64,000 bases of DNA from a virus. Of this stretch, positions 11,298 through 62,441 are shown piece by piece. The notes beneath the pieces were generated by a model, which did not search any database, was not told the DNA's origin, and saw nothing but the letters and a program-made list of their open reading frames with translations. A program made the translations under genes and the position numbers. Numbering within the stretch: the stretch's first letter is position 1; the number at the start of each line of letters is the position of its first letter. The stretch is from IMG/VR virus record IMGVR_UViG_3300046665_000306, positions 1-64,000 of that record; one strand, given 5' to 3'.

Positions 11298-11492
11298 CTA
11301 GTCATCGCATCTCGTCTCGACTAGCTCAAGTTTAAATTGTTTTAATGATTTATTTAATTCTGAATCTATTTTATTTATTTCATCTTCTTTCATTCTGCAT
11401 TCTTCATACGTGTATTGACCATACACGTGCAACGAATCAATATCCGTTGCAGTGTTATGCACTAGCACAAAGAGAGTCAGCAACTTAATCAT
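11298..11492 (-). CDS. Small secreted or anchored protein, hypothetical
   Basis: A 64-residue product with a hydrophobic start (MIKLLTLFVLVHN) like a short signal or anchor, then a charged helical part with Cys near both ends (EECRMK, ETRCDD). GAAAC before ATG is only a weak ribosome site. It resembles the signal-plus-cysteine small proteins at 37713-38074. Function unknown. Confidence 0.6.
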   Translation of the reverse strand: MIKLLTLFVLVHNTATDIDSLHVYGQYTYEECRMKEDEINKIDSELNKSLKQFKLELVETRCDD

Positions 11493-60569: not shown

Positions 60570-60782
60570 CTACTCCAAGCTCATGTGACCGTTACACCCA
60601 ACCAACGTTCCTATCCGACCAAGGTTCCATTCATAGTTGCCTATCCCTGTCACGACTGGTTTGCCTAGGTCGGCCATCTCTAGCCCTGCCGCTCTCAGAT
60701 CAATGCTGAATTGGAGATTTGAATGTAGCCTCGCCTTGTTGCGAATCGCGATGAATTTCCTGATATTCTTGGTGTTAAGCAT
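60570..60782 (-). CDS. Hypothetical protein
   Basis: A 70-residue protein (NIRKFIAIRNKARLHSNLQF; GKPVVTGIGNYEWNLGRIG). Start at 60782 overlaps the cupin gene's end. Basic helix then strands. Function unknown. Confidence 0.68.
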   Translation of the reverse strand: MLNTKNIRKFIAIRNKARLHSNLQFSIDLRAAGLEMADLGKPVVTGIGNYEWNLGRIGTLVGCNGHMSLE

Positions 60783-61248
60783 CACTAATCCTTGTCCCAT
60801 CCGGCTTCAGCCTAACACCCTCGCCCGTTCCATCGCATGGATGATGACCGTGCACCGCGAAATATTTATCTCGCTTAATGATTTTCCCCTTGACAAGGAA
60901 TCCCCAACGAAACATTGGTGCGCCAGTGATGAGAAAGGTCCACGTATTACGTTTGACGTTTTGAACTGAATGCATATGATCCGCAGCACGATAGCGAATC
61001 ATTCCGGCCCTCATCCGCTCCACGTCTTTGACGAGAACTGCGCCCTCAATGGTTTCATAGGTCACATCGTCATAGCCGCCACGCAGCACGACAGTAACGA
61101 ACCAATAAGGATGATTGTGAGGGTGACGGTGATCGTCATCCCCGAGCCATTGGTGAAGCCTCACGCTCCACTTCTTGAACAGAACAGCCCATAGCCGGAA
61201 ATATGGACATTCGGGAAGACCACCGGCACGGTTCCAGATGATTTTCAT
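60775..61248 (-). CDS. Cupin-type phage protein
   Basis: A 157-residue protein. WLGDDDHRHPHNHPYWFVTV (His40, 42, 44, 46) with the downstream HMHSVQNV is a cupin-like double-stranded beta-helix metal site; FRWGFLVKGKIIKRDKYF ends the domain. This family of about 160-190 residues is common in phages and has no proven substrate; small-molecule binding or sugar/nucleotide modification are inferences. Start at 61248. Confidence 0.82.
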   Translation of the reverse strand: MKIIWNRAGGLPECPYFRLWAVLFKKWSVRLHQWLGDDDHRHPHNHPYWFVTVVLRGGYDDVTYETIEGAVLVKDVERMRAGMIRYRAADHMHSVQNVKRNTWTFLITGAPMFRWGFLVKGKIIKRDKYFAVHGHHPCDGTGEGVRLKPDGTRISDA

Positions 61249-61249
61249 C

Positions 61250-61375
61250 TCAGCGTTCCAGATAGTCGCGAGCCTCGCCAAAGCTCATCTCGAAATCGAA
61301 GACAAGGGCTTGCATCGCCTCTGTCATGAAAATATCGCCATTCTTGTAGCTGGCTTTGACTTGACGCTTTGTCAC
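61250..61375 (-). CDS. Hypothetical protein, GTG start (41 residues)
   Basis: A 41-residue protein (TKRQVKASYKNGDIFMTEAM, then LVFDFEMSFGEARDYLER). GTG start eight bases after AAAGGAG. Packs one base before the cupin start. Function unknown. Confidence 0.64.
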   Translation of the reverse strand: MTKRQVKASYKNGDIFMTEAMQALVFDFEMSFGEARDYLER

Positions 61376-61386
61376 ATTGATCTCCT

Positions 61387-61851
61387 TTAAATTTTGTCCC
61401 AAACAGCGATAACCGCTTCGATGTAGCTATTATCTATCACAAACGTTTCACGAGGTAAATGATAAAACCTTACATCATGGAGAATCTTACAAATTTCGTC
61501 ACGGTATGCGGCATGGAGCAGAGCGACAAGTCTTCCACCCTCTGCAAGCTGAGACGCGGCATGACTGACATGCGTGACGCAATTACGATGGGGTGGATTC
61601 ATAACGACTCGGTCGAACAGATTGTCAAACTTTTGACATAGGAAATTGGTGTTCAAACATTCCACCGATGGATGTGAATCTATCAAATCAGCAAACATCT
61701 TCTTATTAAGTTCTATCGCCGTGATGTAGCGAGCGTGAACCTCAAGAGCTTCCACGATAGCACCAATTCCGGCACTAGGTTCAAGCACTCTGTCATGAAT
61801 TGTGATATCCGCAAGCGCGGCCATATCGGCGGCGAGCCACGACGGCGTCAT
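61387..61851 (-). CDS. Class I methyltransferase-like protein
   Basis: A 154-residue SAM-dependent methyltransferase core. TPSWLAADMAAL start, motif I VLEPSAGIGAIVEAL, motif II acidic strand (ITAIELN), motif IV NPPH (amino- methyltransferase type), then VALLHAAYRDE. It is shorter than complete DNA methyltransferases and lacks a visible target-recognition domain. The start at 61851 gives a usual N-terminus; an ATG at 61974 with AAAGGA upstream would add 41 residues encoded across the end of the tRNA-like gene, so it is less likely. Confidence 0.8.
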   Translation of the reverse strand: MTPSWLAADMAALADITIHDRVLEPSAGIGAIVEALEVHARYITAIELNKKMFADLIDSHPSVECLNTNFLCQKFDNLFDRVVMNPPHRNCVTHVSHAASQLAEGGRLVALLHAAYRDEICKILHDVRFYHLPRETFVIDNSYIEAVIAVWDKI

Positions 61852-61865
61852 GGTCGCAAGCAATT

Positions 61866-62089
61866 TGGTCCGGGGTGATGGGCTCGAACCACCGACACCT
61901 GTAGTTTCGTCCCTTATCCCCTTCAAATCATCTCCAACACTACTAGGGCCGGTTCTTGAGTTAATTACGCTCATTACTACATTCCTTTCATATCATTGAT
62001 TCATTTAAGGTTCAATTCATTCCTGTCGGTGATCAAGCCGGTCGAAATGAATCAGGCTAACAGTGCTCTACCAACTGAGCTAACCCCAG
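61866..62089 (-). ncRNA. tRNA-like gene with insertion in the anticodon arm (2)
   Basis: A complete cloverleaf frame, interrupted: acceptor CTGGGGT with ACCCCGG (7 pairs), D-arm GCTC-AGTTGGTA-GAGC, T-arm GGTGG-TTCGAGC-CCATC, then ACCA. The anticodon stem CTGTT...TACAG (four pairs) is split by about 150 bases. CTGTT can also pair with GACAG inside the insert, ending in a U-G pair as in a group I P1 helix. The insert shares motifs with the neighbouring copy. No T33 can be rebuilt by simple splicing, so function as a normal tRNA is doubtful. Confidence 0.6.
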
Positions 62090-62129
62090 AAATCTTCTTC
62101 AACCGTGGTTGAGGAAGCTTTATGTAATT

Positions 62130-62377
62130 TGGTCCAAGAGAATGGATTCGAACCACCAACCCCACGTTTTCTACCAATCCTTTTCAATTCCATTGTCGCG
62201 GTACTAAGTCTCTTTCATGAGTTGATCTGACTCACTACTTAATCCTTTTCAACGGCAATGTCCTATCCAATTCCATCTAATGCTGTAACACGATTTGTCA
62301 CATCGTTGCACTAAATAAGGCCGTGGTGCTCTACCTGCTACCTTTTGACACAAGGCATACTTTGGAGCTACCCTTGG
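62130..62377 (-). ncRNA. tRNA-like gene with insertions in D-loop and anticodon arm (1)
   Basis: Acceptor CCAAGGG with CTCTTGG (one wobble), D-stem GCTC/GAGC around an enlarged loop of 33 bases, perfect anticodon stem CCACG/CGTGG, T-arm GGTGG-TTCGAAT-CCATT, then ACCA. About 155 bases (62321-62167) are inserted in the anticodon loop, containing AAAAGGATTAAGTAGTGAG, close to a motif in copy 2. It follows its own promoter directly. An expanded tRNA, unusual intron carrier or tRNA-mimic are all open. Confidence 0.6.
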
Positions 62378-62412: not shown

Positions 62413-62441
62413 TATGTAAGACATTCGTTTCGTTTTGTCAA
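62413..62441 (-). promoter_or_regulatory. Promoter of the tRNA-like pair
   Basis: TTGACA (62436-62441), 17 bases, TACATA (62413-62418); the start site would lie about 30 bases before the first tRNA-like gene. Confidence 0.68.

Follow-up and report, generated by a model that had tools for sequence, protein, structure and literature searches.

We estimate at about one half the probability that two RNA elements of a phage genome, W1 and W2, represent a new phage RNA family whose members act as unspliced, non-decoding analogues of tRNA-Phe and serve a neighboring methyltransferase-cupin cassette. The two copies lie on the minus strand of the window, the 64,000-nucleotide stretch of IMG/VR virus record IMGVR_UViG_3300046665_000306 that was analyzed here. 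At the level of sequence, comparison with relatives in seven other phages shows a complete tRNA body, an insert helix stacked on the anticodon stem and a retained seven-nucleotide strand, NNGAARN.

Elements of the window

Both elements were found exactly where a preliminary description of this DNA had placed them, as tRNA-like genes with complete acceptor, D- and T-arms, an encoded CCA and inserts of about 150 bases in the anticodon arm. The features are as follows (nt, nucleotides or, before a number, tRNA position).

62130-62377, minus strand: tRNA-like element copy 1 (W1), 248 nt; supported by the sequence, the detector, the homologs K1 and M1, and covariation
61866-62089, minus strand: tRNA-like element copy 2 (W2), 224 nt, with encoded CCA; supported by the sequence and the detector; tRNA-Phe(gaa) according to ARAGORN with introns allowed
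62174-62321, minus strand: insert of W1, 148 nt between tRNA nt 31 and 32, starting GCC and ending ..GGATTGG
61911-62058, minus strand: insert of W2, 148 nt when bounded by tRNA nt 31 and 32, homologous to the W1 insert
62167-62173, minus strand: W1 loop piece TAGAAAA, equivalent to anticodon loop 32-38, with GAA at 34-36 and A33
61904-61910, minus strand: W2 loop piece ACGAAAC, loop-equivalent, with GAA at 34-36 and C33
62339-62357, minus strand: W1 D-loop hairpin TGCCTT..AAGGTA, supported by covariation and compensated in M1 as CACCAT..ATGGTG

Each copy has a 7-bp acceptor stem with C1-G72 and A73, a 4-bp D-stem (GCTC/GAGC) and a 5-bp T-stem with a TTCGA loop. The anticodon stem opened by the insert is CCACG/CGTGG in W1 and CTGT/ACAG plus a T.T mismatch in W2. 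The W1 insert contains the helices P2, P3, P4, P5 and P7 together with AGUA/GAA (loop-E-like) motifs. As had been described, the two inserts resemble each other, and the similarity extends over their whole length with the TGAG...CTCA hairpin included; the D-loop of the first copy is indeed enlarged, by an extra hairpin (GCCTT/AAGGT) that is also present in two relatives. Neither copy was called by ARAGORN at default settings or by Rfam at its curated cut-offs, and an Rfam search of the window elements at E <= 10 returned noise, with no RF00005 match at 61866-62377. The folding energies of W1 and W2 as single sequences are ordinary (z of -0.6 and -0.7), and the case for a constrained RNA therefore rests on comparison.

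Distribution among phages

The family consists of 14 elements in the genomes of 8 large phages, a sample of fourteen sequences in about six lineages. The 12 members outside the window, all of them unannotated or overlapped by a mis-extended gene, belong to Caulobacter phages CcrColossus (C1 and C2; L033) and CcrPW (P1 and P2; L034), Brevundimonas phage vB_BgoS-Bajun (B1 and B2; L001), Rhizobium phage RHph_Y1_11 (R1; L035) and three IMG/VR phages, of which one carries K1 and K2 (L003), one of 184.9 kb carries M1 (L187) and M2 (L004) and one of 278.9 kb carries G1 (L186). Bajun was located by a distant blastn match of the region, in two short pieces about 200 nt apart; its two elements occupy a gap in the annotation, upstream of a gene labelled "DNA modification methylase". 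Relatives of this methylase led to L003, where the methylase is 82% identical and both copies are present, D-loop hairpin included, and to L004, whose contig carries copy 1 (M1) of the same phage at its other end. They also led to CcrColossus and CcrPW, with two elements apiece in unannotated gaps of about 675 bp, and to RHph_Y1_11, with a single element inside an extended methyltransferase gene call. The single element of the 278.9-kb phage was found by a DNA pattern. There is one locus per phage, and in 6 of the 8 phages it holds a tandem pair. At full length the RNAs would measure 224-276 nt, those of CcrColossus 249-276 nt.

A looser detector run over 434 loci, many of them rich in tRNA genes, gave no members beyond the 14, and pattern scans with AGTA-TGAG and GCAGGTAGAGC gave no new members among the matches listed. 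When 84,980 genomes of bacteria and archaea were scanned once for the signature in its strict form, the single match lay inside unrelated sequence and no element was found; a plasmid search yielded ordinary tRNA fragments only. Full-text searches of the literature outside subscription papers found no description of such RNAs. Across the eight genomes the 5' signature R32-C33-C34 occurs only at the element loci, apart from one unrelated match in CcrPW; the Bajun copies B1 and B2 depart from the strict form of this pattern. A mobile intron spreading among tRNAs was rejected, since no other insertion site was seen and the signature is confined to the element loci. The preliminary description, which contained neither the relatives nor the GAA loop, the constant C1-G72 and A73 or the methyltransferase-cupin linkage, had named scrambled tRNA halves and unconserved inserts in other phages as evidence against its proposal; in the seven other phages the halves are intact and the inserts conserved.

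Two further kinds of tRNA-like locus were observed during this work. In CcrColossus (L188, 108300-110000, minus strand) and CcrPW (L189, 115900-117500) circularly permuted tRNA-like modules, each with the T-arm ahead of the D-arm and set between GGTGGCGTAG..CTTCG and GTTCCCCC pieces, form an array that directly adjoins a TROVE (Ro60) gene; it scores below the Rfam YrlA cut-off and looks like a phage Y RNA array. Unrelated phage tRNA arrays hold another tRNA-like gene (L126, minus strand, about 11326-11458 of the reverse complement; L150; L156 at 7463; L159 at 2091) in which GCC is followed by about 55 inserted nt (AAAAGATCGTTTCTAC..GTAGA..CGATCTTAGGCC); two copies are called tRNA-Val(gac) by ARAGORN with introns allowed, and the gene has no obvious sequence homology to the W1/W2 family. 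Isolated T-arm-like hairpins lie between the copies at L003:3593-3747 (CCGGTTCAATTCCGG, GTAGGGTTCAAGTCCCTAC) and L187:2250-2400 (GTAAGGTTCGAGTCCTTGA), and these are perhaps the remains of further tRNA-like units.

Evidence for a constrained fold

Covariation was assessed by testing a structure of nine helices on the aligned sequences of W1, W2, K1, K2, M1 and M2, which are the closest members. Standard pairs fill 94.8% of the cells, and 21 pairs are changed on both sides; none of 500 shuffled controls reached these values, and slid versions of the structure were only 35-54% paired. All cells of the acceptor stem and the T-stem are paired, and in the acceptor stem (42 of 42 cells) five of the seven pairs show double changes. 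Compensatory changes also occur in the P3 hairpin and P4 of the insert and in the D-loop hairpin, P5 is built from 5-bp sequences that differ among members, and P2, in the more distant members, covaries as CCGC/GCGG, CCGGG/CCTGG, CCGTGC/GCATGG and CCAGC/GCTGG. The AGUA/GAA motifs, which probably form loop-E internal loops, flank P7. By this comparative evidence the W1/W2 family is a constrained RNA, beyond what chance would produce, and an origin as chance or degenerate tRNAs was rejected on the covariation. A loop-loop pairing between P3 (UUGAUCA) and P7 fits W2, K2 and R1; because it does not fit M1 and M2 we do not claim it. The P3 and P7 loops of these five members have the self-complementary cores UGAUCA, UAAUUA and UAGCUA, by which kissing dimers would be possible.

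An anticodon strand of the tRNA-Phe type

The seven bases 5' of the 3' anticodon strand read NNGAARN in 14 of 14 members, with GAA and R37 invariant. The anticodon loop of tRNA-Phe has this arrangement, and ATGAAGA is also the loop of an ordinary phage tRNA-Phe (L163). As folded, the more distant members begin their insert one purine past nt 31 with the helix P2, which closes directly before AUGAAGA. Excision of the insert, from nt 31 to the loop piece, leaves bodies of 75 nt (one member), 76 nt (eight members) or 77 nt (two members), and 100-101 nt in the three members that retain the D-loop hairpin. Given no hint and with introns allowed, ARAGORN placed an intron at 31-33 and called tRNA-Phe(gaa) for 9 of the 14; these calls cover 9 of the 11 elements lacking the D-loop hairpin, compared with 37 of 533 calls when the inserts were shuffled. 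The program accepted 13 of the 14 excised forms as tRNA-Phe(gaa).

Beyond this strand the family has the acceptor, D- and T-stems, U8, G18G19, TTCRA loop and CCA of a tRNA. The identity nucleotides of phenylalanyl-tRNA synthetase (PheRS) include G34 A35 A36, A73 and U20; the family carries these, with A73 in 14 of 14 and U20 in 13 of 14, and may be aminoacylated. Three features weigh against a tRNA-Phe analogue: A73 and U20 are shared by tRNAs of many kinds, the PheRS elements G44-U45 occur in only 5 of 14 members, and C1-G72, more typical of tRNA-Pro, is constant throughout (as are A73 and the encoded CCA). Isotype assignment by similarity to the phages' own tRNAs gave a mixed result (Ile, Pro, Arg, Ala) and was uninformative. 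Relative to tRNA-Phe(GAA), RF00005, the family is alike in its acceptor, D- and T-arms, A73, CCA, GAA strand and 75-77-nt body without the insert, while differing in the structured insert of 148-200 nt at nt 31/32, in the constant C1-G72, in the frequent loss of U33 and in the score of the intact genes, which is below the Rfam cut-off.

U33 is present in 8 of 14 members, with A33 in four and C33 in two, and it occurs in neither window copy. The preliminary claim that no ordinary splice restores T33 is therefore borne out for W1 (A33) and W2 (C33), while it fails for the family, in which T33 stands before GAA in the eight. The anticodon stem is perfect in 10-11 of 14 and has only 3-4 bp in M2, B1 and W2. 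The loss of U33 in six members and the weak stems of W2, M2 and B1 argue against decoding, though not absolutely, because there appear to be phage tRNAs with C33. A number of phage tRNAs seemingly have C33 in place of the near-universal U33 (L119, L131, L134, L137, L139, L141, L143, L148, L155, L161 and others), mostly with anticodon GTT and some with GAT or CAT.

Phage tRNAs counter defenses that cut tRNA, and the display of a GAA loop in a non-decoding body would suit a bait or an escape RNA directed at a host nuclease or defense toxin that reads the anticodon region of tRNA-Phe. We consider this very improbable as the primary role: it leaves the methyltransferase-cupin linkage unexplained and has no need of 150-200 nt of conserved structure, and we know of no tRNA-Phe-specific defense in these hosts. 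The earlier suggestion of a tRNA mimic that escapes or baits anticodon nucleases survives to the extent that the invariant GAA fits a mimic of tRNA-Phe; no finding points to anticodon nucleases in particular.

Splicing and known RNA classes

To our knowledge, the tRNA genes with long anticodon-loop inserts described so far all contain introns of known classes. An undescribed class of intron that is excised at nt 31/32, by itself or with the help of an enzyme, and that leaves a tRNA-Phe(GAA) decoding UUU/UUC is the main, though rather improbable, alternative. The geometry suits it perfectly: exact excision at one homologous place gives tRNA bodies of 75-77 nt in all 11 members lacking the D-loop hairpin and almost always an acceptable tRNA-Phe(gaa). 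The anticodon loop is the site of tRNA introns elsewhere, P2 brings the ends of the insert together, and the eight members with U33 would give a textbook loop if spliced, some of them identical to that of the ordinary phage tRNA-Phe, which counts against our preferred reading of an unspliced RNA.

No known intron class or enzyme fits, however. In the loci of the window, CcrColossus and Bajun no covariance model of the group I core (P3-P9) matched up to E = 10, and none of group II (domain V in Rfam) matched at E <= 10. The tRNA-intron endonuclease PF01974 is found in 0 of the 8 phage genomes, neither RtcB nor the PF09414 ligase is found in RHph_Y1_11, and the archaeal splicing signature was not found in the family. 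Splicing is also at odds with the A33 and C33 members, with the fixed linkage to the methyltransferase and cupin and with the fixed C1-G72 body; moreover, neither an intronless version nor another tRNA bearing the insertion was seen. The compact intron of the preliminary description accordingly keeps its excisable tRNA-Phe(GAA) body and loses any recognized mechanism. The family shares a structured anticodon-loop insert with the group I introns of bacterial tRNAs (the Anabaena tRNA-Leu and Azoarcus tRNA-Ile type), whereas no group I core was found in the loci searched and its insert lies on the 5' side of the loop. Known group I introns are longer than the 148 nt of the W-type inserts. As of 2014 every known phage intron lay in a protein-coding gene and none in a tRNA gene (PMC3984707).

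With tmRNA the family has in common tRNA ends and a long structured insertion in the anticodon arm. ARAGORN and Rfam were both negative for tmRNA, the sole match (10 bits) spanning two neighboring elements, and tmRNA was rejected because the 4-bp D-stem is complete, there is no G3.U70 and no tag reading frame is conserved. A short tag frame in W1 (MSQINS*, SD-GTG) was dropped as a candidate, as it is not conserved outside the window's group. The tmRNA-like expansion proposed earlier thus finds no support, and the check by Infernal group I and tmRNA models that had been suggested with it returned nothing else. YrlA and the bacterial Y RNAs are tRNA-like RNAs with a non-decoding role and in this resemble our reading of the family; YrlA, however, is a circularly permuted tRNA module. 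Matches to it (RF02553) reached 18.8 and 25.3 bits against a cut-off of 69, and the identity was rejected, since these matches reach from the T-arm of copy 1 into the D-arm of copy 2 and result from the tandem order of the elements. A TROVE gene is absent from the window's phage. In its proposed mode of action the family resembles the non-decoding amino-acid donors such as the staphylococcal tRNA-Gly of cell wall synthesis, which are chargeable and do not decode; those donors have normal anticodon arms, and a transferase was not identified for the family.

Genomic context

All 14 elements in the 8 genomes stand, singly or as a pair, directly upstream of a methyltransferase gene and in the same orientation, and the order RNA-methyltransferase-cupin is the same in all. 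The corresponding features of the window are as follows.

61387-61974, minus strand: small N6-adenine-type methyltransferase gene; conserved part 61387-61866, with the frame extending upstream into copy 2
60775-61281, minus strand: cupin gene, third cassette member; phrog_4786, labelled cysteine dioxygenase; likely start ATG 61248
62413-62441, minus strand: promoter-like TTGACA-N17-TACATA, by itself not above shuffles

In CcrColossus the methyltransferase is gp358 and the cupin gp359. The methyltransferase is a small class I enzyme whose sequence profile is nearest, among solved structures, to the KsgA/Dim1/Erm RNA adenine methylases, with TaqI lower in the list, and its structure model (pLDDT 88) matches the same folds, CbiT-type methyltransferases also ranking high. 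Its phage relatives are annotated as DNA methylases, and because of these relatives the target may be DNA. Of 50,697 phage records, those with a cupin of at least 45% identity were limited to CcrColossus, CcrPW, Bajun and RHph_Y1_11, all of which carry the RNA; at the loci of distant cupins (about 30%) in three other phages no such RNA was found nearby. The structure model of the cupin was of low confidence and too poor for a structure search. The promoter that the two copies had been said to share is not significant as a single match, and the same is true of most of its counterparts, although in 7 of the 8 phages the first element is preceded by the pattern TTGAC[AG]-N17-TA.

This arrangement raises the alternative that the elements act in cis, as a leader or an in-frame tRNA-like fold that controls translation of the methyltransferase-cupin operon or is cut. 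Cutting would be by RNase P and the 3' processing enzymes, and the methyltransferase itself would perhaps bind the fold. In RHph_Y1_11 the methyltransferase frame begins immediately 5' of the tRNA, at an ATG accompanied by AGGAGG, is open through the RNA and offers no later start codon ahead of the conserved part. Copy 2 is where the frame opens in the window, L003 and L004, with a possible ATG at 61974 of the window, inside the W2 insert. Maturation as a tRNA would cut such frame-overlapping messages apart. The chance of an open frame is 0.04 for RHph_Y1_11 and 0.14 and 0.14-0.15 for the window, L003 and L004 cases, so that the overlap is suggestive only. A switch in cis would not need an encoded CCA, a fully compensated acceptor stem or an invariant GAA, nor two tandem copies, and in CcrColossus, CcrPW and Bajun the methyltransferase has its own start past the RNA. 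We therefore think it improbable as the main function. A cis-regulatory role, like that of nuclease bait, is possible as an addition to the other readings. The overlap of frame and RNA lies at L035:5770-6007 in RHph_Y1_11 and at 61866-61974 in the window, and the RTNL start of the methyltransferase is encoded by the tRNA 3' end CGGACCAAT.

Working model and significance

The reading that we prefer remains that of a non-decoding tRNA-Phe analogue. Transcription would start at the promoter just upstream, and the ends of the RNA would mature as in a tRNA. With the insert retained, the GAA loop strand would face a helix and could not read codons on the ribosome, while phenylalanyl-tRNA synthetase, or another reader of the tRNA-Phe anticodon, would still recognize the RNA. 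Recognition of the synthetase type would account for the constancy of GAA, R37 and A73 and the near-constancy of U20, and for the failure to keep U33 and a firm anticodon stem. An ordinary tRNA-Phe(GAA) coexists with the element in two of the phages, and this, together with the retention of synthetase features and the loss of decoding features, favors the analogue. The N6-adenine-type methyltransferase and the cupin may then act on the RNA or on an amino acid attached to it, the RNA being their substrate or carrier. On this basis we tentatively suggest a dedicated three-part system in which a PheRS-readable tRNA that does not decode and bears a folded domain in the anticodon loop serves as amino-acid carrier or guide for an adenine methyltransferase and a cupin oxygenase or, should the RNA be spliced, a new and very small class of self-splicing tRNA intron.

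The W1/W2 family has no Rfam counterpart, is missed by ARAGORN at default settings and is tied to two enzymes. It raises the question of whether phages put a tRNA bearing the phenylalanine anticodon to a non-decoding use or splice tRNA in a new way, a question that is easy to test because the cassette is present in culturable phages (Caulobacter phage CcrColossus and Brevundimonas phage Bajun). The family points either to a role of tRNA beyond its usual part in translation that has gone unrecognized, or to a tRNA intron of a new type.
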